Of a DNA stretch of 22,849 nucleotides, positions 6,941 to 18,298 are shown in pieces. Both the position numbers and the translations under genes were made by a program. How positions within the stretch are numbered: position 1 is the stretch's first letter; each line of letters starts with the position of its first letter. This stretch comes from a virus, in the IMG/VR virus record IMGVR_UViG_3300046516_001288, positions 1 to 22,849 of that record; one strand, given 5' to 3'. The notes below the pieces were generated by a model. The model saw nothing but the letters and a program-made list of their open reading frames with translations. It was not told the origin of the DNA and ran no database searches.

Positions 6941-7139
6941 CCCGCGCCTCCTGTTTCAGTCGCTCGATCGCGGCCGTGGCGTCGTAAAGGATGGCGGCGG
7001 GCGGCGGTTCGATGTGCTTTCTGCACCAACTCGTGAGCCTCTCAACGCTCAGAATGTCGTCGGCGCGGCGGTCCCACGGGTCGACGATGTCGTAATACCC
7101 GGCGGCGCCCTGGACCCGCGAAGGGCGATCCTCGCTCAT
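6918..7139 (-). CDS. 73-residue hypothetical protein
   Basis: The frame begins MSEDRPSRVQGAAGYYDIVD, has a central Trp/Arg segment (DPWDRRADDILSVERLTSWC) and a helical end. The ATG overlaps the upstream stop (ATGA at 7139-7136), and the 3' end overlaps the following start by 23 bases. The dense overlaps and the mixed aromatic/charged composition support a real gene. No family is recognised. Confidence 0.55.
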   Translation of the reverse strand: MSEDRPSRVQGAAGYYDIVDPWDRRADDILSVERLTSWCRKHIEPPPAAILYDATAAIERLKQEARDDVVVHR

Positions 7140-7615
7140 GCCGCCCTCTCGATCATCTCGATCACACGGTGCATGTCGGCCAGAACCTCCTCGGCGCAGC
7201 CCAGGTGGAACACCTCGTCACCGATCCGATCCGTCGCGCCATATTCGCCGCACAGGCCGCACACAGGCTCCAACACGCCCGCGCCATCGCAGATATCGCA
7301 ACGCACACCGCCGGCCGGGTCGTTGCCGTTGAAAGCAATCCCATCCTCGCAGCGGGGGCAGGTTGACGACAGAGACAGTCCGTCACAGGCTGCGGAATTG
7401 GGCCACGCGCGCGGCTGTGGCGAAAGCGCGCAATCATTAGACGCGCTCTCAAGTATTGGAATACAATTAAAGCGAGTCCTGCCCCGTTTTACCTCTTGCT
7501 TCGGTAGTATTGCTTGGTAAAATACACCACTCGCGCCAGCGACGCCGTGGGCACCGTGCGTGCCGCCAAGTAATTCCTTATCAGATTGGGAGTGGTCGAA
7601 ATGCGCCTTGAGCAT
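7136..7615 (-). CDS. DnaJ-like zinc-finger protein, first gene of the leftward operon
   Basis: The start at 7615 is chosen because CGGAGG lies 5 bases upstream. An in-frame ATG at 7693 would place coding sequence across the promoter and operators. The product has 159 residues. The first about 90 residues show no recognisable domain. The C-terminal part has three Cys pairs (CPRC, CDIC and CGLC) and a fourth ligand set HLGC. CDICDGAG is close to the CxxCxGxG repeat of DnaJ zinc domains. This suggests a two-zinc structural or binding domain, without evidence for chaperone activity. It ends in an ATGA overlap with the next gene and should be the first gene transcribed from the promoter at 7669-7641. 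Confidence 0.55.
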   Translation of the reverse strand: MLKAHFDHSQSDKELLGGTHGAHGVAGASGVFYQAILPKQEVKRGRTRFNCIPILESASNDCALSPQPRAWPNSAACDGLSLSSTCPRCEDGIAFNGNDPAGGVRCDICDGAGVLEPVCGLCGEYGATDRIGDEVFHLGCAEEVLADMHRVIEMIERAA

Positions 7616-7640
7616 GATAGCCTCCGTGTGTCTGGAGGCC

Positions 7641-7669
7641 ACCCTATGCAGAGTTTCTGCATCAGTCAA
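7641..7669 (-). promoter_or_regulatory. Leftward promoter PL
   Basis: Read leftward, TTGACT (7669-7664) is followed by a 17-base spacer and TAGGGT (7646-7641). The -35 is good and the -10 is weak. The spacer is almost exactly filled by operator O1, so bound repressor would block RNA polymerase. It drives the small-gene operon beginning at 7615. Confidence 0.5.
7647..7661. promoter_or_regulatory. Operator O1 (TGCAG-N5-CTGCA)
   Basis: Perfect inverted repeat ATGCAG-agttt-CTGCAT with core at 7647-7661. It lies between the -35 and -10 of the leftward promoter. Confidence 0.7.
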
Positions 7670-7677
7670 TATGGCGA

Positions 7678-7692
7678 TGCAGACTCTCTGCA
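7678..7692. promoter_or_regulatory. Operator O2 (TGCAG-N5-CTGCA)
   Basis: Perfect inverted repeat GATGCAG-actct-CTGCATC, outer limits 7676-7694. Its centre is 31 bases (about three helical turns) from O1, just upstream of the leftward -35. Confidence 0.7.
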
Positions 7693-7769
7693 TCTTTTTT
7701 TCACCGACCGTGAACCGCCGGGATATCAGCCTGTCTTATTGATCCTGCGGAAGCTCGGCCAACCCCTGC

Positions 7770-8037
7770 CTATTGATCCGCCTGCGAAGCCTGATCCGCG
7801 CGCCATATTGCCTTCGCCAATCCCGAAGGCGCCTCTGAAACAATCCCGCGCAAAATCCACTCCGTCGAAACCCCGTAGCGGTCGGAAAAGCATTTCATGA
7901 ACCAATGGGCGGGATAATGGTCGCCGCGTAGAGACGCCCAGTTCACGCGCGACCTCCGCCTGGGTCTCGCCAATCGCCTCGATCGCGACCCGCAGCCGGC
8001 GGCCTATCTCGACCTTATAAATCACCTCGTCACTCAT
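7770..8037 (-). pseudogene. Frame-disrupted CI-like (XRE-family) repressor
   Basis: From the ATG at 8037 the first 36 residues (IGRRLRVAIEAIGETQAEVARELGVS) read as the start of a helix-turn-helix repressor. That frame then continues to 7726 with unrelated sequence. In another frame the protein resumes with NWASLRGDHYPAHWF and YGVSTEWILRGIVS, which is the usual continuation in alphaproteobacterial XRE repressors of this type, and ends at 7770. In family members I recall, about six residues including the recognition helix separate GVS from NW; here they are missing. This fits a short deletion of 3n+2 bases, perhaps about 29, removing the recognition helix and shifting the frame. A divergent Cro-like gene and matching operators show that it sits in the repressor position. 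It has no ribosome site, only a promoter close by. Confidence 0.7.
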
Positions 8038-8044
8038 GGCCGGG

Positions 8045-8074
8045 AATATGGGACGGAATGTAGATTCCCTGCAA
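8045..8074 (-). promoter_or_regulatory. Promoter for the repressor gene
   Basis: Read leftward, TTGCAG (8074-8069) is followed by an 18-base spacer and CATATT (8050-8045). The -35 overlaps the imperfect operator O3. The start codon at 8037 is only 7 bases past the -10, so the message would be leaderless or nearly so. Confidence 0.4.
8059..8073. promoter_or_regulatory. Operator O3 (imperfect)
   Basis: TGTAG-attcc-CTGCA, one mismatch from the TGCAG-N5-CTGCA core. Its centre (8066) is 42 bases, four helical turns, from the centre of O4. Confidence 0.55.
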
Positions 8075-8091
8075 GACAGGAGATGGATGGG

Positions 8092-8119
8092 TTGACCGTA
8101 TGCAGCAGTCCTGCATACT
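8092..8119 (+). promoter_or_regulatory. Rightward promoter PR
   Basis: TTGACC (8092-8097) is followed by 16 bases and CATACT (8114-8119). Operator O4 fills the spacer and the -10. Transcription would start at about 8126, on or next to the ATG of the Cro-like gene. Confidence 0.5.
8098..8118. promoter_or_regulatory. Operator O4, perfect 8-bp inverted repeat
   Basis: GTATGCAG-cagtc-CTGCATAC is a perfect 8-base inverted repeat with the same 5-base spacer as the other three sites. It is the longest match of the set and lies 7 bases before the start codon of the Cro-like gene. Confidence 0.8.
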
Positions 8120-8125
8120 CAGGTC

Positions 8126-8335
8126 ATGCCAGATTATGACGCCCCCCTGATCAAGGTTCTTCAGAAGATCGGCCCCAGTCGGTTGGCTGAACATCTTGGG
8201 ATCGTCCCCTCCGCTGTTACCCAGTGGCGGCGGGTGCCCGCCAGACACGTCCCGCGCGTGGCCGCGCTCACCGGCATACCAGGATGCGAAATCCGTCCGG
8301 ACATGTATCCGTGCGAGGAAGCCGAAACCGCGTGA
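8126..8335 (+). CDS. YdaS/Cro-like DNA-binding protein
   Basis: The product has 69 residues. A helix-turn-helix is visible at about 17-36 (PSRLAEHLGIVPSAVTQWRR), followed by a VPARHVPRVAALTG helix and a short acidic tail. This matches the YdaS/Cro group, which typically acts as the early repressor opposite a CI-type gene. It is divergent from the disrupted repressor gene, and operator O4 overlaps its promoter, so it probably binds these operators and controls itself. Only a weak CAGG lies near the start, which fits a leaderless message. It is the first gene of the rightward early region. Confidence 0.8.
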   Translation: MPDYDAPLIKVLQKIGPSRLAEHLGIVPSAVTQWRRVPARHVPRVAALTGIPGCEIRPDMYPCEEAETA

Positions 8336-8353: not shown

Positions 8354-8587
8354 ATGTGGACAGTATCGTGGCAGGACTTTCGCCGGCACGCGTTCGGCGA
8401 CCCGATGCCACCGATTGAACGCGAGACGTTCGAAACGAAGGAGGCGGCCGACCGGCGAAAGACCGAGTTGAAATCGTCTTGTGTCATCGCCTGCGTGACG
8501 CCGCTGGTAATCCGGCGCCGGCGACAAAAACCCGTGCTCGACGGCGATGTGCCGATCTTCAACGCGGCATGGAAACTGGCGAAGTGA
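8354..8587 (+). CDS. 77-residue hypothetical protein
   Basis: The ATG is preceded by a strong purine-rich site (GGGAGGCGGGGAG). The protein begins MWTVSWQDFRRHAFGD and has a charged helix (ETKEAADRRKTELKSS), a short beta-like stretch and a basic RRRRQK segment. A compact nucleic-acid-binding or regulatory protein is possible. Its stop overlaps the GTG of the resolvase gene (GTGA), so the two are coupled. No family is recognised with confidence. Confidence 0.65.
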   Translation: MWTVSWQDFRRHAFGDPMPPIERETFETKEAADRRKTELKSSCVIACVTPLVIRRRRQKPVLDGDVPIFNAAWKLAK

Positions 8588-9054
8588 GCGAACAGCCTGC
8601 CGTGGTCATTAACTTTCCACGCCCAACATCGGCCAACCGCATGTTCTCGCGGCAAATGACCCGTCGTGGCCATCGCGACCTGACACCGGAATACAAAGCG
8701 TGGCGAGACGAAGCCGGGTGGCTCGTCAAGATGCAGATCGTGGGACTTGTGACGATTACCTCACGCTTCAACATCGTCATCGAGGTGCCGCGAACGTCGA
8801 GAACCGATATTGATAACAATGTGAAACCAATCCTCGACCTCGCACAGAACATGGGGATCATCTCAAACGACAAAAACTGCGCCGGGATCACGATCACGCC
8901 AGCCGATCGAACCGACTGCATGGCGGCTTTCTGGCCGCTCGCCGAAGCGGGCGTGGTGACGGCACGCATGAGGTCAGTGCGGCCGGCGATGCGGCGGACG
9001 GCCCCAAAGCGGCGGGCGCTGACGTGGCTGGCCCCTGGGAAGCTACCGGCGTGA
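8584..9054 (+). CDS. rusA: RusA-like Holliday junction resolvase
   Basis: The start is the GTG at 8584 in a GTGA overlap; a longer frame from 8479 only adds sequence lying over the upstream gene. The product has 156 residues. The N-terminal FPRPTSANRMF is typical of RusA. The acidic residues D75, D77 and D96 in DIDNNVKPILDLAQNMG and SNDKN have exactly the spacing of the catalytic D70, D72 and D91 of E. coli RusA. Such enzymes cut four-way DNA junctions during phage replication and recombination and before packaging. The C-terminus is longer and more basic than usual (RMRSVRPAMRRTAPKRRA), perhaps aiding DNA binding. Its stop overlaps the next GTG. Confidence 0.88.
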   Translation: MSEQPAVVINFPRPTSANRMFSRQMTRRGHRDLTPEYKAWRDEAGWLVKMQIVGLVTITSRFNIVIEVPRTSRTDIDNNVKPILDLAQNMGIISNDKNCAGITITPADRTDCMAAFWPLAEAGVVTARMRSVRPAMRRTAPKRRALTWLAPGKLPA

Positions 9055-9146
9055 ATGCGCGGGATCACCTGTGGTTGGTCTGGCCCGCGTTGGTCGCCCT
9101 GTCGTGGCTGGTGGCCTGGGTGATCACCCGATGGGTCGATCGATGA
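9051..9146 (+). CDS. 31-residue membrane peptide
   Basis: The GTG at 9051 overlaps the resolvase stop (GTGA), and the TGA at 9144-9146 overlaps the next ATG (ATGA). The peptide begins MNARDHLW, and residues about 7-27 form a Trp-rich membrane helix (WLVWPALVALSWLVAWVITRW) ending in basic and acidic residues. Double coupling and composition support it as real. Function is unknown. Confidence 0.5.
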   Translation: MNARDHLWLVWPALVALSWLVAWVITRWVDR

Positions 9147-9769
9147 TGTGCTACGCGTCTCGCACCGGCACACGCCGCAATCTGACCGCCTTACGGGAAG
9201 CCGGGTGGGGCCTGCTGGTTTCGCGTGCCGGCGTCTGGCGCACCGAGGGGTTCGACGATTACGTGCTCGACAACGGCGCGTGGTCGGACTTCCAGGCGGG
9301 GCGATCTTTTGACGGAGATGCGTTTGAACGCCTGATCGAGCAACTCGGCGCGCGAGCTCGCTGGATCGTGCTGCCGGATATCGTGGCCGGCGGTCTGGCA
9401 TCGCTGGCATTGTCGGTTCGCTGGCTTAATCGCTGCCTGTCCGTTTGTCCCTTGGTGCTGATCGCGGTGCAGGACGGCATGGTCGAGACCGACCTCGCAC
9501 CGCTGGTCGGCCCCTCGGTCGGTGTTTTCCTGGGCGGCTCGACGGAATGGAAGTTGGCCACGATGGCGGCCTGGGGCCGGTTCTGCGCCGCTCACGCCGT
9601 CCACTACCATGTCGCCAGGGTGAACACCGGACGCCGCATGGCGATGGCCGTGGCGGCCGGGGCGGACAGCGTCGATGGCACCAGCGCCACGCGTTACGCC
9701 GTGACGATCAGGAAGCTGGATAACACATCGCGACAGTTGGATCTCTGGACACCGGAGCGCGGCTCATGA
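9143..9769 (+). CDS. TGT/DpdA-like TIM-barrel protein
   Basis: The start is the ATG at 9143 in an ATGA overlap (an adjacent ATG at 9146 is possible). The product has 208 residues. Motifs occur in the order of tRNA-guanine transglycosylase-type barrels: LDNGAW (42-47, candidate acid D43), LPDIVAGG (77-84), AVQDGM (108-113), GVFLGGSTEWK (127-137), HVARVNTGRR (156-165) and GADSVDGTS (173-181, D175 and D178). TGT enzymes swap guanine for a 7-deazaguanine in tRNA; the DpdA branch, also found in phages, does so in DNA. I assign the superfamily with fair confidence, but not the substrate. No preQ0-synthesis gene is visible, so any precursor would come from the host. It is encoded between a resolvase and a GcrA-like protein. 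Confidence 0.65.
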   Translation: MMCYASRTGTRRNLTALREAGWGLLVSRAGVWRTEGFDDYVLDNGAWSDFQAGRSFDGDAFERLIEQLGARARWIVLPDIVAGGLASLALSVRWLNRCLSVCPLVLIAVQDGMVETDLAPLVGPSVGVFLGGSTEWKLATMAAWGRFCAAHAVHYHVARVNTGRRMAMAVAAGADSVDGTSATRYAVTIRKLDNTSRQLDLWTPERGS

Positions 9770-10179
9770 ACGCGCGGGAGAGGGTGTGGGGCTGGATCGA
9801 GGCCAATCGCCAGGGCCACGTTCTGCATGCCTCGCCGCGCCAGATCGCGGCCGCTACGGGCGTCGGGCTGGAGTGGGTCAAGACGATCATCGAGCAGTGG
9901 TGCGACGAGGGGTGCCTGACGCGCGTTGAGTTCAAACGATATCGGATCGTCGAGACGCCGAAACTGGACGGTTTCACGCGAAACGCGGAATGGTCGCGGG
10001 AGGCGCGTGGGAAGCTGGCGGAGTTGTCGGCGCGCGGGCTGTCGCTCTCGGAGATGGCACGCGAGATGCGCACGACGGTCAACGCCATCGCCGGGCAACG
10101 CAGCCGCATGGGCCTGCCGAAACGGCCGTCACCGATACGGCGTGGGGCGTGGCTCAGGCTGCCCGAGATTGACCCATGA
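9766..10179 (+). CDS. GcrA-like helix-turn-helix protein
   Basis: The product has 137 residues and is coupled to the upstream gene by ATGA. The first 65 residues resemble a winged-helix fold (SPRQIAAATGVGLEWVKTII). Residues about 76-125, WSREARGKLAEL, GLSLSEMAREM and TVNAIAGQRSRMGLPKR, follow the pattern of the GcrA DNA-binding region (W..E....L..L...G.S...IA......NA..G...R.GL). GcrA is an alphaproteobacterial cell-cycle transcription factor that works with sigma-70 and senses adenine methylation, and phage versions are known. This one lacks an obvious GcrA C-terminal sigma-binding domain, so it may only borrow the DNA-binding part. It overlaps the opposite RHH gene by 26 bases. Confidence 0.6.
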   Translation: MNARERVWGWIEANRQGHVLHASPRQIAAATGVGLEWVKTIIEQWCDEGCLTRVEFKRYRIVETPKLDGFTRNAEWSREARGKLAELSARGLSLSEMAREMRTTVNAIAGQRSRMGLPKRPSPIRRGAWLRLPEIDP

Positions 10180-10339
10180 GGTTCTGGCGCCCCGACTTTG
10201 CCCGCCGAACCGCCACCTCTCGCGCCAACAGATGCGTGATCAGAGAGGTCAGCGTCCGGCTCTCTTCCTTGGCCAGACGCTCCGATTCGATCCGCAAATC
10301 CTCGGGTAACCGCAAGGAAAACGTTTTTTTCGCACTCAT
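10154..10339 (-). CDS. Ribbon-helix-helix repressor-like protein
   Basis: The product has 61 residues. The N-terminal KKTFSLRLPEDL is the beta strand and first turn of an Arc/CopG-type ribbon-helix-helix. It is followed by the helix RIESERLAKEESRTLTSLI and then HLLAREVAVRRAK. These proteins bind DNA as dimers. It is divergent from the Sak4-like gene, and the space between holds ATTGC repeats over the rightward promoter, so it probably controls the replication operon and itself. Its 3' end runs 26 bases into the opposite GcrA-like gene. Confidence 0.75.
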   Translation of the reverse strand: MSAKKTFSLRLPEDLRIESERLAKEESRTLTSLITHLLAREVAVRRAKSGRQNLMGQSRAA

Positions 10340-10355
10340 AATGGCTTCTCACGCA

Positions 10356-10384
10356 TTGCTATTGCATTGCGTTGGGTGTATAGT
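10356..10384 (+). promoter_or_regulatory. Replication-operon promoter with ATTGC repeats
   Basis: TTGCTA (10356-10361), a 17-base spacer and TATAGT (10379-10384) form a fair sigma-70 promoter upstream of the Sak4-like gene. Three ATTGC direct repeats (10355-10359, 10361-10365, 10366-10370) overlap the -35 and spacer and are candidate RHH-binding sites. Confidence 0.5.
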
Positions 10385-10414
10385 GCCTGACGTAATTTGT
10401 CAAGGAGAACCGCC

Positions 10415-11314
10415 ATGAACGCCATCACGAAACCCCGGTCGAAGCTGCTCGCCGTCGAGCCGGAGGCCGTCGAGCCCGGACACCCCACGGTCCTGGTCTA
10501 CGGTCCTCCTGGGGTCGGCAAGACCTGGGTCAGCCTGGATTTCCCCGCCGTTTATTACATCGACACCGAGGGCGGCGCTGATCTCGACCACTACCGCGCC
10601 AAGTTGCGCGCGTCCGGTGGCGCCTATCTCGGCCCCGATCAGGGTAGCCTGGATTTCGACGTGGTCATCAATCAGATCCAGGCACTGGCCACGGAGCAGC
10701 ACAATTATCGCACCGTCGTCATCGACTCGATATCGAAACTTTGGAACGTGGCGCTGTCGGACGAGCAGGAGCGGCTCGGCGCCAAGGACGCGTTCGGCGC
10801 GTTCAAGAAACTGCCCACGCGGCAATTCCAGTCGCTGATCAAATGGATCAACCGCCTGGACATGAACGCGGTCTTTATCGCGCATCAGAAAGACCTCTGG
10901 GGCCTGAACGACCAGAAGCAGCGCGAAATGATCGGCTACTGCGCCGACGCGCAAGATAAGCTTGAGTACGACCTGCATCTGTCGCTTCGCATCGCGAAGC
11001 TTGGTACCAGCCGCTATGCCTATATCGGCAAGTCGCGCCTGCCGACGTTCCCCGAGGGCGACATGTTCCCGTGGTCATACGAGAACTTCGCCGAACGCTA
11101 TGGCCGCATCGTCATCGAGCAAGAGGCGAAACCAATCGTGCTCGCCGATGAAGGCCAGATATCCGAACTGAGCCGGCTGCTGTCGATCGTGAAAATGCCC
11201 GACGACTGGGCCGAGAAAGTCTTCAAGAAAGCCGGCGTCGAGGCCTGGACCGAAATGGACGCGGACAAGGCAGCCAAGGTCATCGAAAATCTCAGGTCGC
11301 GTCTGTCCGCCTGA
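10415..11314 (+). CDS. Sak4-like RecA-core ATPase (recombinase)
   Basis: The ATG at 10415 has AAGGAG 7 bases upstream; a TTG at 10397 opens the same frame but would include that site. The product has 299 residues. Walker A is GPPGVGKT (30-37). The aspartate of Walker B is D104 in TVVIDSISKLW, and DTEGG and IAHQKD are further motifs of the RecA-like core. Proteins of this AAA_24/Sak4 type are phage single-strand annealing or exchange proteins that work with a phage SSB. The next gene is SSB-like, which supports that pairing. The C-terminal about 60 residues are helical (LSRLLSIVKMPDDWAEKVFK) and may bind partners. It is the first gene of the rightward replication operon. Confidence 0.8.
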   Translation: MNAITKPRSKLLAVEPEAVEPGHPTVLVYGPPGVGKTWVSLDFPAVYYIDTEGGADLDHYRAKLRASGGAYLGPDQGSLDFDVVINQIQALATEQHNYRTVVIDSISKLWNVALSDEQERLGAKDAFGAFKKLPTRQFQSLIKWINRLDMNAVFIAHQKDLWGLNDQKQREMIGYCADAQDKLEYDLHLSLRIAKLGTSRYAYIGKSRLPTFPEGDMFPWSYENFAERYGRIVIEQEAKPIVLADEGQISELSRLLSIVKMPDDWAEKVFKKAGVEAWTEMDADKAAKVIENLRSRLSA

Positions 11315-11331
11315 AAAGGAAGGAAACCATC

Positions 11332-11835
11332 ATGCACGTTAAACCCGTCACACCCGAACAAGCGGCGGCGGCCGCGACTTCATTCGAACCGTTGCCCCCT
11401 GGGGATTACGATTTCTCGATCTATCAGGCGGAGGACACACGCTCCGCCAAAGGCGACGATATGCTGAAGCTGACGCTGCACATCCTGCTTGGCGACGGCA
11501 GGCATCGCACCGTCTTCGATTATGTTCTCGGCACTGACAACTGGGCCTGGAAGGCCCGCCATCTGGCCGAGGCCATCGATATGGTCTCGCAATACGAGAA
11601 CGGTGAGCTCGATCCAGACTTCCTGGAGAGCCGTGTTGGGCGCCTGCGGCTGAAGATCAAGCCGGCCAACGGGCAATACGGCGCTGGCAACCAGGTAGTG
11701 GACTACCTGCCGCGCGAGGCCACGGAAGCGGCGCGATCCACGGCGGGACAACGCACACCGGCGATCAATCGCGCGCCGGTACCGTCACGGGAAAAGGTTC
11801 TGGCTGGTGATATTGATGATGACATACCATTTTGA
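11332..11835 (+). CDS. SSB-like single-stranded-DNA-binding protein (DUF669-like)
   Basis: The product has 167 residues, with GGAAGGAAAC before the ATG. The body (PPGDYDFSIYQAEDTRSAKG, then LKLTLHILLGDGR and VFDYVLGTDNWAWK) looks like the beta-rich fold of phage DUF669-type proteins. A flexible Pro/Arg-rich stretch leads to the C-terminal tip DDDIPF at 162-167, which is the same acidic tip that E. coli SSB uses to recruit partner proteins. It follows a Sak4-like ATPase, matching the usual Sak4-SSB pair. The fold is inferred, but the tip is directly visible. It is followed by the helicase gene after 12 bases. Confidence 0.72.
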   Translation: MHVKPVTPEQAAAAATSFEPLPPGDYDFSIYQAEDTRSAKGDDMLKLTLHILLGDGRHRTVFDYVLGTDNWAWKARHLAEAIDMVSQYENGELDPDFLESRVGRLRLKIKPANGQYGAGNQVVDYLPREATEAARSTAGQRTPAINRAPVPSREKVLAGDIDDDIPF

Positions 11836-11847
11836 TACGGTATAGCA

Positions 11848-13347
11848 ATGGATGAGTTTTGCTCCCTCGACGATTTTTGGCACGTCAGCCAGATCGTCGA
11901 GGAAGGACTTGGTTCCCCTTATCTGACCGCGTGGGAAAGGGGGTTCCTGGATGATATTCAGGAACGCATCGACCAGCATGGCGAGAACGTCCGCCTGTCC
12001 ATTGCTCAGATCGAGACACTGGATGCCATCGAAGAGAAGTTGGAGGTTGAGCAAGAAGCGCCGGAGACACCTCCTCCGGCGGAGACCAGCCCCCTCGGCA
12101 TCACGCTGAACGAGGATCAGGCCCGCGCGCTGGCGGAGATTGAAGCGTCGATCATCATGCGCCGGCCACATCTGCTGACCGGCCATGCTGGCTCCGGCAA
12201 GACCACGCTGATCCAGGTGTTGGCCACGCGCTGGGGGACCAAAAAGGTCGTGCTCTGCGGTCCCACGCACAAGGCGTGCGAGGTGTTGAGCCGCAAACTG
12301 CGCGCCGCCGGTATCAAAATCCCGGTCTGCACCATTCATTCCCTGTTGAGCCTGCGGCCAAAAGCCGAAGGTGCCCGACAGGTCTTCATCCGCCGCCCCA
12401 AAGCACCGCCGGTCGTGGCCGACCTCGTCATCATCGATGAGGCGTCCATGCTCGACGCCTCCATGATGCGCCACATCGAGCTTTGGCTGGCCGAGATCGC
12501 CGTGGTGTTCGTGGGCGATCCGGCGCAACTCCCGCCCGTGGGCGAGGCCGGCAGCCGCTGCTTCGCCACGGTCCCCGAAAGCCATCTGCGCGGCATCGTG
12601 CGGCAGGCGGAAGGCAATCCCATCATCGCCGCCTCGGCCGTCGTGCGCGCCTCCCAGGCGGCCGTCGTGCCCGATTGGTCGTGGGCCACTCCCCTTCGGA
12701 TTGGCGATACCGGGATTTTCAATCCAGGCCATGAGGTCAACGCATGGCTGAAGCACGCCTTCACATCGGCCGCCTTCGTCAGTGATCCCGACACGTTCCG
12801 CTATTTGGTCTGGCGCAACGATCGGGTGGACTGGTTCAACGCCCGCGTGCGCCGCTGGCTGGGCCACGATCCGGCGGTGCCATTCGTTTCCGGCGAACGC
12901 GCGCTGATCCGCACTCCGCTCGTCGTCAACAAGGAAATCGTGCTGTCGACCAACGAAGAAGTGACGGTGGTGTCGATCGCCGCCGGCCAACACCTGGAAA
13001 TTCCAACCTGGGAGGTCCGTGTGGTCTCGGCGGGGGGTAATGTCGTGGATATCCACATTGTCCGCGACTGGATGGAGCACAAAGCGCGGCTGGACACGCT
13101 GGCGCGCGCGGCCATCGGCGATACCGCCTCGTGGGAGGACTTCCACGCCTTCAAGGCCGAGTTCGTCGACGCGCGGCCACTTTACGCGCTGACCACGCAT
13201 AACGCGCAGGGCTCGACGTTCCGCCATGTGTTCATCGACGTGCCGGAGTTCCGCGACTGGGTCAAACGCGCGCCGGACGAAGGCAAGAAGGGACTGTATG
13301 TCGCCATAACCCGTGCCTCGCACACCGTGACCTTGGTCGGTTCCTGA
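11848..13347 (+). CDS. SF1 DNA helicase (RecD/Dda-like)
   Basis: The product has 499 residues. Residues 1-70 form a helical domain (LTAWERGFLDDIQERIDQHG...) that is also seen attached to other phage proteins. Then comes an acidic/Pro linker and a superfamily 1 helicase core. The core has Walker A GHAGSGKTT (112-120), GPTHKA, Walker B IIDEASM (195-201), GDPAQLPPVG (223-232), a QGSTF motif V at about 450 and YVAITRAS motif VI (484-491). This layout is typical of RecD2/Dda-type 5'-3' helicases. It probably unwinds DNA for replication or recombination beside the Sak4-SSB pair and the primase. No ribosome site is strong. A long antisense frame over this gene is an artefact of base composition. Confidence 0.85.
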   Translation: MDEFCSLDDFWHVSQIVEEGLGSPYLTAWERGFLDDIQERIDQHGENVRLSIAQIETLDAIEEKLEVEQEAPETPPPAETSPLGITLNEDQARALAEIEASIIMRRPHLLTGHAGSGKTTLIQVLATRWGTKKVVLCGPTHKACEVLSRKLRAAGIKIPVCTIHSLLSLRPKAEGARQVFIRRPKAPPVVADLVIIDEASMLDASMMRHIELWLAEIAVVFVGDPAQLPPVGEAGSRCFATVPESHLRGIVRQAEGNPIIAASAVVRASQAAVVPDWSWATPLRIGDTGIFNPGHEVNAWLKHAFTSAAFVSDPDTFRYLVWRNDRVDWFNARVRRWLGHDPAVPFVSGERALIRTPLVVNKEIVLSTNEEVTVVSIAAGQHLEIPTWEVRVVSAGGNVVDIHIVRDWMEHKARLDTLARAAIGDTASWEDFHAFKAEFVDARPLYALTTHNAQGSTFRHVFIDVPEFRDWVKRAPDEGKKGLYVAITRASHTVTLVGS

Positions 13348-13350
13348 TCG

Positions 13351-14193
13351 GTGGCATCCATCCCTTCAGACATCGAACGCGCCGCTCTGGTGGGCTTCAA
13401 GGTGTTTCCAACGTCCCGTTCCAGTCGTGCCGCCGCTTATCCCGGCGCGCATCTGGCGGCGACCGACGACCTGAACCAGATCGCGCGTTGGTGCCGGGAG
13501 TATCCGCGTTGCAACTGGCGCCTCATCTTCGGCCCCTCGGGGCTTTGGGGACTCGATGTCGATGCCGCCGGGCCAACCCACGCGGCGGACGGAATCGCGG
13601 CGTTGCGAGCGCTGGTCGCCGTCCATGGCGCCTTGCCGCCACGCCCCACCTCGCTTTCCGGCGGCGGTGGTTACGGGCTGATATTTCGCCACAATGGCGA
13701 GCGGATCATCGGCAGGACCGGCTACCCGGCGCCAGGGATCGATCCACGCCGGGGTATGCTGTCCCTCACAATCCCGCCCTCCATCCATATCGTGACCCGC
13801 CAGCCCTACCGATGGGCGCGCGGTTGGGCGCCGTGGGATGTGGCGCCCCCCATCGCGCCGGGCTGGCTGGTCAGGCTGGTCGAGATGCCGCCCGAACCAA
13901 AGCGGGTGGCAGTGGTGATCGATACCTCGGACCAGGCGCGCCGCCGGCTGTATCGCGCGGCCCTGGCGGTGATCGACGCGCCGCCGGGGTCGCGTAACGA
14001 AACCCTGAACCGACGGGCCTACCAGATCGGCCGGATGATCGGCGCCGGGTTGCTCGGCGAGATGGAGGCGGTCGAGGCCCTCTACGGCGCCGCGCGACAG
14101 GCCGGGCTGGACCACGTGGAGACACGCGACACCATCCGCTCCGGGATCAGCTCGGGCCGGCGCAATCCCATGGGGGCCGGCGATGGAAGATGA
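13351..14193 (+). CDS. PrimPol-domain primase-polymerase
   Basis: The GTG at 13351 begins 3 bases after the helicase stop, and no better start is visible. The product has 280 residues. The N-terminal two thirds match the bifunctional primase-polymerase domain. ALVGFKVFPT opens the fold, GLDVDAAG at about 68-75 carries the acidic metal-binding pair, and LSGGGGYGLIFRH at about 105 is the conserved SGGxG motif. The last 90 residues are helical, with RRAYQIGRMIGAGLL and TIRSGISSGRRNP, typical of the region that follows in such primases. It overlaps the VapE-like ATPase by 11 bases, so primase and helicase functions are split over two coupled genes. Confidence 0.8.
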   Translation: MASIPSDIERAALVGFKVFPTSRSSRAAAYPGAHLAATDDLNQIARWCREYPRCNWRLIFGPSGLWGLDVDAAGPTHAADGIAALRALVAVHGALPPRPTSLSGGGGYGLIFRHNGERIIGRTGYPAPGIDPRRGMLSLTIPPSIHIVTRQPYRWARGWAPWDVAPPIAPGWLVRLVEMPPEPKRVAVVIDTSDQARRRLYRAALAVIDAPPGSRNETLNRRAYQIGRMIGAGLLGEMEAVEALYGAARQAGLDHVETRDTIRSGISSGRRNPMGAGDGR

Positions 14194-15535
14194 CGAGCCG
14201 CCACCCACGGATGCGGTGGATAACGTGGTCCCGATCACCGCCGCCCCAAAACCGTCCTGGGTCGGTCGCCTGCACCACACCAGGGAAGGCGAGGTCCACC
14301 CGACCTTGGCCAACGCGCTGATCATCATGGCGCACGATCCAAGGTTCCGAGGCACGCTCGGCCATAACCTGTTCACCGACCGACGCATGCTCATGCGCGA
14401 GGCGCCGCCATCGGAGGACAGCGGGTTCCTGATGCCAGGACCCTATCCACGCTTCTGGCAGGATGAGGACATCTCGCTGGTGCAGGCTTACATGCAACGC
14501 GTCTGGGCACCCCGGTTCCAGCGTAACACGATCTCCGACGCGATGGCCGTCACCGCCATGTCGCACCCATTCCATCCCGTGCGCGACTGGCTCGATACAC
14601 TGAAATGGGACGGAACCAAACGGCTGGACAACTGGCTGACGAACGCCTTCGACGCCCGCAACGACGAGATCCAGGGCACCGACGCATGGCGACAACGCCA
14701 CGGCTATTTCCAGGCCATCGGTGCCAAATTCCTGATCGCCGCCGTGCGCCGGGTGCGTTGCCCTGGTTGTAAATTCGATTCCATGCTGATCCTGGAAGGG
14801 CCGCAACGCATCGGCAAAAGCACCGCGCTCCTGACCTTGTTCAGCCGTGAATGGTTTTCCGACGCGGTGCCCCTGGATCTCGCCAACCGGGATGCCGCCA
14901 TCGCCCTGCATGGCCTGTGGTGCCTGGAATTCGCTGAGATCGAGCACCTGGTCAGAACCGAGGTGGAGACAATCAAGGCGTTCCTGTCCCGTTCGGTCGA
15001 TCATTACCGGCCAGTGCATGGGCGCGACTTCGTCGACCGGCCACGCCAGGGCGTATTGGCGGGGACCACGAACAGTGACGACTATCTACGGGATCAGACT
15101 GGCAACAGCCGCATGTGGCCGGTGCCGTGCCAGTCCGTGGATCTCCACTGGCTGGTCGTCAACCGCGATCAATTATGGGCCGAAGCCGCCGCGCGCGAAG
15201 ACAGCGGGGAAAACCTCTGGCTGGATGACCAGGATTTACAGAACGCGGCCAGTGAAACCACGGAATCCCGCATGTCGGAAGAAGTCTGGCAGCCAGCGGT
15301 CGTCCGTTGGCTCACCGACCCCGCGACCAATCTGGTCGAGCCAGTAACCTCCTCCCGAGTGCTCGAGGAAGCCATCGGGATGCCAAAGGAACGGATGACC
15401 AAGGCAGCCTCCATGCGGGCAGGCGCCGTCCTTCGCTCCCTCGGGTGGGAACGGCACTGGGAATCAACACCCGAAACCAGTGGAAAAAAAGGCCACTCCA
15501 CCAGGGTCTGGCGACCGCCCAAAGAAGGCACGTGA
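14183..15535 (+). CDS. VapE-type replicative ATPase/helicase
   Basis: The product has 450 residues. Walker A is GPQRIGKST at 206-214. Upstream, HPVRDWLDTLKWDGTKRLDNWL is the signature of the virulence-associated E (D5-like) ATPase family. A Cys pair CPGC lies at about 193-196. Downstream, LWCLEFAEIEHL carries the Walker B acidic residues, VETIKAFLSRSVDHYR follows, and GTTNSDDYLRDQTGNSRMWP holds the sensor and arginine-finger region. The C-terminal 100 residues look like a winged helix for DNA binding (RMTKAASMRAGAVLRSLGW). It probably unwinds DNA at the origin together with the PrimPol protein. The nearby repeat array supports this. Confidence 0.85.
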   Translation: MEDDEPPPTDAVDNVVPITAAPKPSWVGRLHHTREGEVHPTLANALIIMAHDPRFRGTLGHNLFTDRRMLMREAPPSEDSGFLMPGPYPRFWQDEDISLVQAYMQRVWAPRFQRNTISDAMAVTAMSHPFHPVRDWLDTLKWDGTKRLDNWLTNAFDARNDEIQGTDAWRQRHGYFQAIGAKFLIAAVRRVRCPGCKFDSMLILEGPQRIGKSTALLTLFSREWFSDAVPLDLANRDAAIALHGLWCLEFAEIEHLVRTEVETIKAFLSRSVDHYRPVHGRDFVDRPRQGVLAGTTNSDDYLRDQTGNSRMWPVPCQSVDLHWLVVNRDQLWAEAAAREDSGENLWLDDQDLQNAASETTESRMSEEVWQPAVVRWLTDPATNLVEPVTSSRVLEEAIGMPKERMTKAASMRAGAVLRSLGWERHWESTPETSGKKGHSTRVWRPPKEGT

Positions 15536-15560
15536 TGAGGCACGTGATGAGGCACGTAAT
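15527..15560 (+). repeat. Tandem GGCACGTGATGA repeat at the VapE 3' end
   Basis: Two perfect 12-base copies (15527-15538 and 15539-15550) are followed by a partial third (15551-15560). Each full copy contains the palindrome CACGTG. The VapE stop codon lies in the first copy. It borders the putative origin. Confidence 0.75.
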
Positions 15561-15562
15561 TG

Positions 15563-15813
15563 AGGTGGTGGGAAAATGTCTCGGATATCTCGTGCCCAGA
15601 GAAAGGTGGTGGAATCACCGAAAAAGACCGCCAATTCCACCACCTGTATATATATATAGATAGGTGGTGGTATAGGTGGTGGAATAAAAAACGTATGCAT
15701 ATCAATCATAACACCACCTCCACCACCTCCACCACCTGTTACGCATTGCTTACGTGGGTGTGCCTGCAAGAACCCTATAGAAAAGACTTCAGAAATGGCT
15801 GTGGAGGTGGTGG
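15563..15813. repeat. Candidate replication origin: AGGTGGTGG iterons and TA tract
   Basis: Nine copies of AGGTGGTGG are visible. Forward copies start at 15563, 15604, 15662, 15674 and 15805. Reverse copies lie at 15637-15645, 15711-15719 (one mismatch), 15720-15728 and 15729-15737. Inverted pairs flank short loops: AGGTGGTGGAAT at 15604-15615 pairs perfectly with 15634-15645. Copies at 15637 and 15662 flank TATATATATATA (15647-15658). The copies at 15662 and 15674 form a 12-base tandem, and the three reverse copies form a 9-base tandem. The segment 15536-15919 holds no convincing gene and is much more AT-rich in places than its surroundings. Repeats plus an easily melted tract next to primase and helicase genes are typical of an origin, where an initiator binds. 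The function is inferred. Confidence 0.65.
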
Positions 15814-15830
15814 GGTGGATGGTTTTCGAC

Positions 15831-15869
15831 ACAAAAAAAACCGCCGCCAAGGGGGAAGGCGGCGGCGGT
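15831..15869 (-). terminator. Rho-independent terminator for the leftward accessory operon
   Basis: ACCGCCGCC (15840-15848) pairs with GGCGGCGGT (15861-15869). Read leftward, the hairpin is followed by a run of eight or nine T before GTG. It lies 51 bases past the stop at 15920. On the plus strand no T-run follows, so it acts in one direction. Confidence 0.85.
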
Positions 15870-15919
15870 CGGAGTGGATCGTGGTGACAGTCGCGAGGCG
15901 GCCCCGCGACGGACGGAGA

Positions 15920-16516
15920 TTAACCCAGAACGAAGTTCAGGCCCATGGCTGACAGGTGCTCAAGCGCCACGGCGGCGGACGCGCGTTGCTCGGCGGTGGG
16001 CGGTTCGGGTAGCAGGACGTCAACCCACCGGCCCTCGCTCGCGCCGGTCAGGTCCAACGGCCTGAACCCGGTCACCTTGCCCGTCGCGTCCCGCATGATC
16101 TCCCGCTCCTCATGCGCCGTTCGCCGTTCGTCGCCGTCACGATAGACAACCTGCGCCATGACGATCTCGACACGATCCTCGGCCTCACGGATCGGGACCG
16201 CGTCTATCCGCGCATCATGTTCGGCCTCGGTCTCGCCAAACCGCCTCGGCACGTCGCGCATCCATGCCTCGGTGATGAAAGCGAAGCCCTCAGCGTCATG
16301 GGCGGCGCAATACGCGCGCAGGTAAAGCGCCACCGTTTCCTTCCCCAGGCCAGGCGGCGGCGTGCAGACGACGCGCCGATCGCCAGGGAGGTGGATCACC
16401 AGGATGGTCGCGCATGATCCCTGTTCGAGGATCATGCGCCTGGCGAACTCAATGTCGAAGCGCACCTGCCTGGCCCACCGCTCGGGTCCGCGTGCCCGCT
16501 TTGGTTTCGCGCTCAT
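15920..16516 (-). CDS. 198-residue hypothetical phage protein
   Basis: The preferred start is the ATG at 16516 in an ATGA overlap with the upstream stop; GAGGGA lies 11 bases before it. The open frame continues 55 codons further, but only across the upstream HTH gene. The protein begins MSAKPKRARGPERWARQ and then has a mixed alpha/beta body (FARRMILEQGSCATILVIHL, VALYLRAYCAAHDAEGFAFI) containing TEAWM. Two segments rich in Glu and Arg follow. There is no catalytic motif, and I do not recognise the family with certainty. It is the last gene of the five-gene leftward operon, just before the terminator. Confidence 0.65.
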   Translation of the reverse strand: MSAKPKRARGPERWARQVRFDIEFARRMILEQGSCATILVIHLPGDRRVVCTPPPGLGKETVALYLRAYCAAHDAEGFAFITEAWMRDVPRRFGETEAEHDARIDAVPIREAEDRVEIVMAQVVYRDGDERRTAHEEREIMRDATGKVTGFRPLDLTGASEGRWVDVLLPEPPTAEQRASAAVALEHLSAMGLNFVLG

Positions 16517-16809
16517 GACTCGCGATCCCTCAGTGACGGGGCGGGATGCGCGTGGCGGAATGCCGCGAGACCCTCGAGCCACGCCAACAGCGCCGGAGGG
16601 ACAGGCGAGCGACCCAGGCCCCAGTTCCGCGTGGTCGACGGGCTGGTCCGTAGTTCGACGGCCAGGGTACCATACGTCCACCGCAACGCCCTCAGGGCCG
16701 CCTGGAGACGCTCAGGGGGCGCCGGGAGGGCAGAGGGCTCTGGAGGGGCCTGCTCCCGCTCCAGGGCCTGATGCGCGGGGATCAGGGGGCGGAGAGGGCT
16801 GCCGCTCAC
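16513..16809 (-). CDS. Mini helix-turn-helix protein, copy 1
   Basis: This starts with a GTG at 16809 in a GTGA overlap with the upstream stop, and GAGG lies 4 bases before it. The product has 98 residues. The first 30 residues are rich in Pro and Ala. Then comes a domain with ALRALRW, a turn region around AVELRTSPSTTRNWGLG and the signature PPALLAWLEGLAAF. The domain is about half identical to that of the gene at 17313-17531 in the same operon. The pattern fits a small HTH protein whose DNA-recognition helix is STTRNW. A regulator role is inferred. Confidence 0.65.
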   Translation of the reverse strand: MSGSPLRPLIPAHQALEREQAPPEPSALPAPPERLQAALRALRWTYGTLAVELRTSPSTTRNWGLGRSPVPPALLAWLEGLAAFRHAHPAPSLRDRES

Positions 16810-17279
16810 GGGGCCTCACCAGCGGACTCGAACGATTGGACCCAGAGAGCATCAATCTCCGACGGTCCGCGATAGTGCCCGATCGGTCGGTCATCCTCCG
16901 GCACCCCGGACAACACCAGATCCAGAAACCGGCTTTCGTGCTCCGATCGCCGCCGCGCCTGACGGGCGCGGAAGGTGGAAACTTCCCAGAAGGGCCGATC
17001 GTCGATCGTGAACGATGATGCCTTGGTTCGGTGCCACGCGGCGATGCGTGCCTCGAACTCAGCGGCGTGCTTCTTGTTCACGCGGTCCCGCTCCGCGATG
17101 AGCGAGACGACCTTGGCGGCCCGCCTGTCCATCGACGTCGCCAACGCATCCTCGCGTTGCTCGCGGGCGATCGACCGGCGCGCCTCGTTGATCAACTGCG
17201 CGGCGCACTGACGCCACCACGGCAGGACCAACTGACGCAGTAACAACTTCGTGTCAGCTTTGTTCAGTTTCTTGGTCAT
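16806..17279 (-). CDS. 157-residue hypothetical protein
   Basis: The ATG at 17279 has AGGAG 8 bases upstream. The protein is strongly charged and mostly helical. MTKKLNKADTKLLLRQLVLP opens it, a long Arg/Glu/Ala coiled-coil-like region spans about 30-80 (DRRAAKVVSLIAERDRVNKK), and the C-terminus has more aromatic residues (RPFWEVSTFRARQ, IDALWVQSF). No known motif is found. It sits between the two mini-HTH genes and overlaps the second by 4 bases, so it is expressed with them. Confidence 0.65.
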   Translation of the reverse strand: MTKKLNKADTKLLLRQLVLPWWRQCAAQLINEARRSIAREQREDALATSMDRRAAKVVSLIAERDRVNKKHAAEFEARIAAWHRTKASSFTIDDRPFWEVSTFRARQARRRSEHESRFLDLVLSGVPEDDRPIGHYRGPSEIDALWVQSFESAGEAP

Positions 17280-17312
17280 ATCGGTATCTCCTGTTGGTGT
17301 GGTGGCGTGGTG

Positions 17313-17531
17313 TCAGGCGGCGGGTCCAGGTGGTGGCGGATTGGCGTTGACGAAGGCCGCGAGCAGCTCGAGCCACTCGAGCAAGGCGGGCGGCGGATCG
17401 TTCTGGCCACTCAACCAACGCCGGATCGTTCGTTCATTGATGGCCAGCATCTCGGACAATTCTCGCGGACCCCAGCGCAGGCCCCGCAAGGCGAGGGAGA
17501 AGCGCGCCGCGCTCGACAGGTGGCTGCTCAT
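17313..17531 (-). CDS. Mini helix-turn-helix protein, copy 2
   Basis: The ATG at 17531 is in an ATGA overlap with the upstream stop; an open frame further upstream lies over that gene. The product has 72 residues. FSLALRGLRWGPRELSEMLA, with NERTIRRWLSG as recognition helix, reads as a classic XRE-like helix-turn-helix. PPALLEWLELLAAF follows and the end is Pro-rich. It is the paralogue of the 98-residue protein downstream but lacks the Pro-rich N-terminus. Its HTH is closer to consensus than the other copy. It may regulate this operon. Confidence 0.7.
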   Translation of the reverse strand: MSSHLSSAARFSLALRGLRWGPRELSEMLAINERTIRRWLSGQNDPPPALLEWLELLAAFVNANPPPPGPAA

Positions 17532-18298
17532 ATCGCCACCCCGTTCCGCCTGAAGGTCACGCCAGCGCGGCGCTTGGCGCCACGGCCTTGCGTGCTGTGG
17601 TCGGGGATCATGATGCTGTTGCGGCCCTTGCCGGACGTGCCGGAGCAGAGAAGGCAATGGTCACACGTCGTCACCTTGCCACCTTCGGCACTGGCGGGGC
17701 ACAGCGACTCGCCAGACTGCTTCGCCCAGTCAACCGCCGGTGCGACACGGAAGGTGCGCCAGCCAGCAGCTCGCGCTTCGTTCGCCTCTTCAATGCTGTC
17801 GGCGCTCGCCATGACGTAAGCCTGTAGCCATGCGGCATGCGGCGCGCGCCACTGGTGCGTGTAACCGGTGCGGCCCTTGGAGCGGGACAGCATGGCATCC
17901 CAGATGTGGCTCGGAACGGCGGCCGGGTCACCGTAGGTGCCCATGCGAATGAGGCGGCCAGCGAAGGTGGCTGACAGATCGGCCTCGGCGCATACATCGT
18001 AAACGCCACGGGCATAGGCGGAGTAAACCACCGAAACACCCTGACCCAGATTGACGTAACAAGTGCGCGAACCGGCGACGCGGCCGTTGTCGGCATAGGT
18101 TCCCTGGTGCTTGCAGTCGCCACAGATGGTTGACGCCGCGCCGGAACGGGCCGCGAGCACAGGATGGAGGTCGTCATTCAGGACGTAGGTCTGAATCAGA
18201 TCCGCGCCGGTTTTTTCGTTTGATGAGCCATTGAAACCGGTCGCTATCATTACGATGGGCTTCCCGTTCAACATTGATGGGCCGCGATAAATAATCAT
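17528..18298 (-). CDS. Conserved uncharacterised Cys-rich phage protein
   Basis: The start at 18298 is chosen because AGGGA lies 9 bases upstream. The ATG at 18307 directly abuts that site, and an in-frame TTG at 18379 is really the -35 box of the promoter. The product has 256 residues beginning MIIYRGPSMLNGKPIVMIAT. Conserved-looking blocks are ICGDC (58-62), RTCYVNLGQG, MGTYGDPAAVP, GYTHQW, MASADS, AAGWRTFRV and CPASAEGG. The C-terminal cluster C200, C212, C215 and C218 (TTCDHCLLC) plus C59/C62 suggests metal or Fe-S binding. I recognise it as a family found in many phages and prophages with no known function, but cannot confirm its database name. Confidence 0.75.
   Translation of the reverse strand: MIIYRGPSMLNGKPIVMIATGFNGSSNEKTGADLIQTYVLNDDLHPVLAARSGAASTICGDCKHQGTYADNGRVAGSRTCYVNLGQGVSVVYSAYARGVYDVCAEADLSATFAGRLIRMGTYGDPAAVPSHIWDAMLSRSKGRTGYTHQWRAPHAAWLQAYVMASADSIEEANEARAAGWRTFRVAPAVDWAKQSGESLCPASAEGGKVTTCDHCLLCSGTSGKGRNSIMIPDHSTQGRGAKRRAGVTFRRNGVAI

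Follow-up and report, generated by a model that had tools for sequence, protein, structure and literature searches.

A frameshifting 23-nucleotide deletion in a short CI/C2-like repressor gene beside an intact cro and predicted operators: a probable natural clear-type phage

The window analysed here is the whole of IMG/VR virus record IMGVR_UViG_3300046516_001288, a 22,849-base fragment of a genome, and the subject of this report is a repressor-cro cassette within it, the features of which are collected in Table 1. On the minus strand, an open reading frame (ORF) starts with an ATG at 8037, begins MSDEVIYKVEIGRRLRVAIEAIGETQAEVARELGVS and runs to ...AEVARELGVS, at which point it departs from the frame of a helix-turn-helix (HTH) domain. 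The rest of the repressor HTH, ...NWASLRGDHYPAHWF..., is read in a second frame with its stop at 7770. The two halves are 97% (residues 1-36) and 95% (residues 42-96) identical to the intact protein of a related contig, so the two-frame reading is more than chance; neither frame scores over any Pfam cut-off, and the HTH of the window's own copy is incomplete. The ORF at 7726-8037 was confirmed as a frameshifted allele of a short CI/C2-like HTH repressor. An initial annotation of this DNA had described an HTH that begins in one frame and continues in another, with a deletion at the recognition helix of a CI-like repressor; the frames and the homologue alignment bear out the former, and the alignment together with a model of the intact protein bears out the latter.

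Viral contigs were scanned with the right half of the repressor, which gave four loci: L002 (3300046811_000288), L003 (3300045119_000374), L004 (3300044756_000007) and L005 (3300044492_000156). The last three carry an uninterrupted repressor of 95-96 aa, the proteins of L004 and L005 being the same. A fourth intact contig, L063 (3300045776_000167), with a repressor 57% and a cro 68% identical, was found by a search for paired operators. Five other contigs therefore carry this repressor, four of them intact (three distinct sequences) and one, of the window's own strain, with the deletion. The other two distinct intact repressors are 84% and 57% identical to the L003 copy, and across the relatives the intact proteins span 95-131 aa. 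The initial annotation had allowed for homologues that conserve the short frame; the gene is instead full-length in four of the five contigs, and a conserved short gene is ruled out, the only exception being the contig identical to the window. A search for copies in bacterial genomes with a two-sequence alignment gave 80 stretches that matched a pattern, of which none was confirmed, and none was found there by way of the paired operator. The 59-aa repressor fragment had no match in phages and plasmids, and the intact protein returned 193 phage records up to E 1, none of them reaching 60% identity.

Alignment of the homologues showed that 23 consecutive nt present in L003, L004 and L005 are absent from the window and from L002. 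Against the L003 gene, a 23-nt gap leaves 8 mismatches, whereas gaps of 20, 26 or 29 nt leave at least 116. The junction, which contains AACTGGGCGTCT, can be placed equally well after 7929 or after 7930, one base apart, so the ends of the deletion share one base. Outside the gap, three synonymous codons and one replacement codon differ from L003 on the left and two and one on the right, and with so few differences the age of the gene's death cannot be told. A second AACTGG had been predicted about 29 bases away, and it is present in L003 (gene positions 95 and 124), inside the missing stretch. The mechanism built on it, recombination between short direct repeats, did not hold up: a crossover between the AACTGG copies would remove 29 nt, and the 23 nt lost, 6 nt short of that figure and with ends sharing a single base, do not support it as the cause. 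Rescue of the repressor protein by ribosomal frameshifting was rejected by reasoning, as the recognition helix is lost in either frame. An exact search of viral contigs for the junction returned only one other contig, 3300046811_000288, which at its full length (L010) matches the window without a single mismatch across its entire 10,779 bp.

The intact L003 repressor scores over the Pfam cut-offs of HTH_31 (29.5 against 27 bits) and Phage_CI_repr (22.3 against 22 bits); that of L063 reaches 41.1 bits with HTH_31 and, with Phage_CI_repr, 16.6 bits, which is below the cut-off. An AlphaFold model of the intact protein, built on an alignment of three sequences, has a mean predicted local distance difference test (pLDDT) of 87.5, with helices at residues 26-33 and 37-45. 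The lost codons 36-43 are, in this model, almost exactly the third helix (37-45), which is the predicted recognition helix because of the HTH fold. Foldseek matched the model to P22 c2, lambda repressor and ImmR with probability 1.00 and weak E-values (0.012 for the best of all its matches). An S24-type C-terminal peptidase domain was not found in the intact relatives, which end at 95-131 aa and have only HTH-type or other short DNA-binding matches in Pfam; they would not count as lambda CI proper, a two-domain, autocleaving protein.

The divergent Cro-like gene scores 30.4 with YdaS_toxin (cut-off 30) and 21.2 with P22_Cro, below the cut-off of 30.2. Three exact ATGCAG-N5-CTGCAT sites were found in the window (7646, 7677 and 8100) and none in 100 shuffles of it. 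With up to two mismatches allowed there are 4 operator-like sites against 1.08 expected, a number reached in 3 of 100 shuffles; given this weaker control, little weight attaches to the site at 8058 by itself. L003, L004 and L005 have the same three exact sites, with invariant half-sites and some variation in spacers and flanks, and L063 has one mismatch in the site at the right early promoter (PR). The proximal site at the left early promoter (PL) is directly preceded by TTGACT or a TTGC-type hexamer in all four cassettes, so that -35-like hexamers adjoin the operators in each, and a promoter scan at PR gave 1 promoter-like site against 0.5 expected. The operators had been described as intact, and three perfect sites, placed alike in the relatives and lying at early promoters, agree with this. 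The DNA-only scan for the operator pair is what recovered L063, with its diverged repressor and cro and its integrases. It also recovered L064 (3300048502_000085), a 17.6-kb record in which an integrase but no repressor was detected and which ends about 120 bp past the paired sites. A divergent cro-like gene and shared predicted operators in early promoters are both present, and the predicted layout is one in which a bound repressor would block polymerase.

Two further observations concern the operator pair. At 7676-7702 in the window, the distal PL operator forms a perfect hairpin with a run of seven T after it on the plus strand; this scores as terminator-like, facing the repressor gene from behind (0.6 expected by chance), and L004 is T-rich there too. 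The pair in L063 lies about 1.6 kb from the repressor gene rather than adjoining it, and that record has two separate tyrosine-integrase matches.

Table 1. Coordinates of the repressor-cro cassette and adjoining features in the window
Feature	Position	Strand	Details
Frameshifted repressor allele	7726..8037	-	103-aa open frame; HTH lost after residue 35-36
Repressor right half, second frame	7770..7943	-	Corresponds to residues 42-96 of L003 protein, 95% identical
Deletion junction	7929..7931	-	Lacks 23 nt that L003, L004 and L005 have, across codons 36-43; same junction in L010
Cro-like HTH gene (YdaS/P22-Cro type), intact	8126..8335	+	Divergent from repressor; 97% identical in L003
PR operator, perfect ATGCAG-N5-CTGCAT	8100..8116	.	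Between -35 TTGACC (8092) and -10 CATACT (ends 8119)
PL proximal operator	7646..7662	.	Preceded by TTGACT on minus strand
PL distal operator	7677..7693	.	Starts 31 bp from proximal; same pair spacing in L003, L004, L005, L063 and L064
Possible weak second right operator	8058..8074	.	2 mismatches; same bases in L003; 3 mismatches in L004/L005
First gene of leftward operon behind PL	7136..7612	-	Zn-ribbon-like match below cut-off; L003 homologue 73% identical

The window is best read as coming from a natural clear-type phage, that is, one null for its repressor and still in possession of its operators, with a loss-of-function allele of the immunity repressor in a lambda/P22-style switch; we put the probability of this at roughly 84%. 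Both parts, the null allele and the intact operators, are seen at the level of sequence. The intact relatives would make a short single-domain HTH repressor of 95-131 aa, expected to dimerise on ATGCAG-N5-CTGCAT, and with sites lying within PR, which drives cro, and PL, which drives the leftward operon, the bound repressor would block both early promoters. The deletion in the window removes the predicted recognition helix and shifts the frame while cro, promoters and operators remain. The phage should therefore lack repressor, with unchecked early promoters and clear plaques. As the operators are intact, it should still be sensitive to the repressor of a related prophage and be shut off in a cell that contains one, which would make it 'clear' and not 'virulent'. 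A replacement repressor elsewhere in the window was sought by a scan with PF01381, which gave one sub-cut-off match only (17379-17465). This falls within a small HTH-like protein on the minus strand (17313-17657), between replication and packaging genes and outside the cassette; its matches are all below cut-off, and two related contigs have similar ones.

A repressor-null, operator-plus phage is an already known kind. Clear mutants of lambda cI and P22 c2 are without repressor and remain sensitive to immunity. Both systems resemble the cassette described here in their divergent repressor and cro and in operators placed in early promoters, and the intact model matches both structures. Both lambda CI and P22 c2, however, carry a C-terminal autocleavage domain, which the intact repressors here lack, and the cassette also differs in having two left operators and one perfect right operator. 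Among alphaproteobacterial phages, RR1-B and RcapMu have annotated short repressors that are 32-36% identical over residues 1-72, a distant relationship compared by protein. The closest precedent is mycobacteriophage D29, a relative of the temperate phage L5, whose repressor gene is damaged by a deletion and which is obligately lytic yet homoimmune with L5 (PMC3203893, PMC6550527); this is the same phenotype as that predicted for the window phage. The window differs in the loss of 23 nt inside the HTH of a lambda/P22-style cassette, and is known from its sequence alone. A report on the cultured Bacillus phage B450C attributes a clear variant to repressor HTH changes (PMC12786184), in that case two substitutions rather than a deletion.

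The cassette is mosaic with respect to phage type. Against a 12.3-kb locus of the L004 contig (L007), the sole DNA match of the window is 7622-8315 at 75%, and at the protein level the full 41.9-kb L004 record has in common with the window the repressor, cro and, weakly, one 65-aa gene. L003, by contrast, belongs to the window's own phage type (portal 95%, terminase 70%). So does G014 (terminase 82%), whose repressor/cro pair is likewise divergent in layout and intact but a different one. A tyrosine integrase is present in the records of L004, L005, L063 and L064, otherwise unrelated phages with the same cassette. Some contigs match the window almost perfectly but begin, or cease to match, at 8585-8600, next to the cassette, so their repressor alleles cannot be read.

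Several side observations were made on these contigs. L017 is 99.98% identical to the window over 8585-18196 and only 83% just to the left, and beside the point that matches window 8585 it has an extra gene (L017:443-1117) that matches HNH_3 and AP2 below their cut-offs and may encode a homing endonuclease. From sample 3300046811, L010 matches the window at 100% as far as 16878 and L049, which starts from 16888, is 97.4% identical; either more than one strain occurs in this sample or a recombination border lies near 16.88 kb. L051 (3300048898_000030), also of the same phage type, has an unrelated-looking repressor/cro pair in a divergent layout (L051:3540-4232) and, lacking the ATGCAG-N5-CTGCAT site, appears to be a different immunity group.

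Certain points weigh against the clear-type interpretation. The window is only part of a genome, both contigs with the deleted copy represent a single strain, the -10 matches at PL are weak, and the predicted operators could be bound by Cro alone. No match to PF00589 was found in 17 records of the window's phage type (G000, G001 and G004 in one scan; G000, G001 and 14 others in a second), which are mostly fragments and include records of 38.8 and 40.3 kb. Likewise, five integrases used as tblastn queries had no match in the window, the L003 record, 40,000 of the 40,266 bases of G014, L048 or L049, although the queries matched one another only partly, so that an integrase of very divergent sequence might escape detection. 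Serine recombinases (0 of 8 records) and ParA-type AAA_31 (0 of 6) were also not detected, nor was a remnant of an integrase in the window, itself a fragment. With no integrase found in records of the same type, a lysogenic cycle of the intact ancestor is putative. The suggestion in the initial annotation that the phage is locked out of lysogeny thus stands in part: loss of the repressor should have that effect, but neither the window nor its same-type relatives, including a 38.8-kb sister with an intact repressor, has an integrase that was detected.

These results bear on an alternative to which we give a substantial minority weight, namely that the repressor is dispensable in a non-integrating podophage lineage, which received the cassette from temperate phages and is retaining cro and the early promoters as its repressor decays; in that case the deletion would alter superinfection immunity and not a lysogeny that was already lost. 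The missing integrases fit this, as does the sharing of the cassette with otherwise unrelated integrase-bearing phages. However, the repressor still seems useful in the group, since it is intact in L003 and G014 has a different intact pair. The L003 record also has a RepL-like replication gene (L025:11371-11934) near the end of its leftward operon, the only RepL found in six records searched and not found in the window, which could point to a plasmid-like prophage for this sister and not for the window; and phiM5, a more distant relative, has both an annotated integrase and a protein similar to P22 c2. A more specific and somewhat less probable scenario, offered tentatively, is that an integrase-free podophage lineage took the repressor-operator cassette from temperate phages that bear integrases and are unrelated to it, perhaps as a source of immunity that needs no integration. 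A repressor-null, operator-intact strain would then be circulating in nature as an obligate killer still checked by same-cassette prophages of other phage types.

That the gene is intact and the gap was made by the assembler, through collapse of the AACTGG copies or mixing of strains, is improbable. The intact sister does have two such copies 29 nt apart and related strains do occur in these samples, but collapse would take out 29 nt and not 23, and the same junction recurs without a mismatch over 10,779 bp in 3300046811_000288, an assembly that may share some reads with that of the window. Even less credit is given to a functional shortened protein, such as a dominant-negative form or a new regulator made of the first helices and a frameshifted tail. 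Its frame is open for 103 codons, yet long open frames are common in the window (220 ORFs of at least 40 aa), the protein has lost its recognition helix and the short form occurs in one strain only. Its product was modelled at pLDDT 50, weak evidence from single-sequence folding that is not fairly comparable with the intact model built with two relatives.

On the clear-type reading, the window would hold a natural example, found without culture, of the textbook 'clear' mutation, in which the recognition helix is deleted and cro and the operators are untouched. The half-site, the spacing of the pair, the place at the promoters and a DNA-only scan that finds repressors define the cassette and its operator code well enough to predict immunity between prophages and phages. 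What purpose a repressor serves in a group of phages without a detectable integrase is a further question prompted by the finding.
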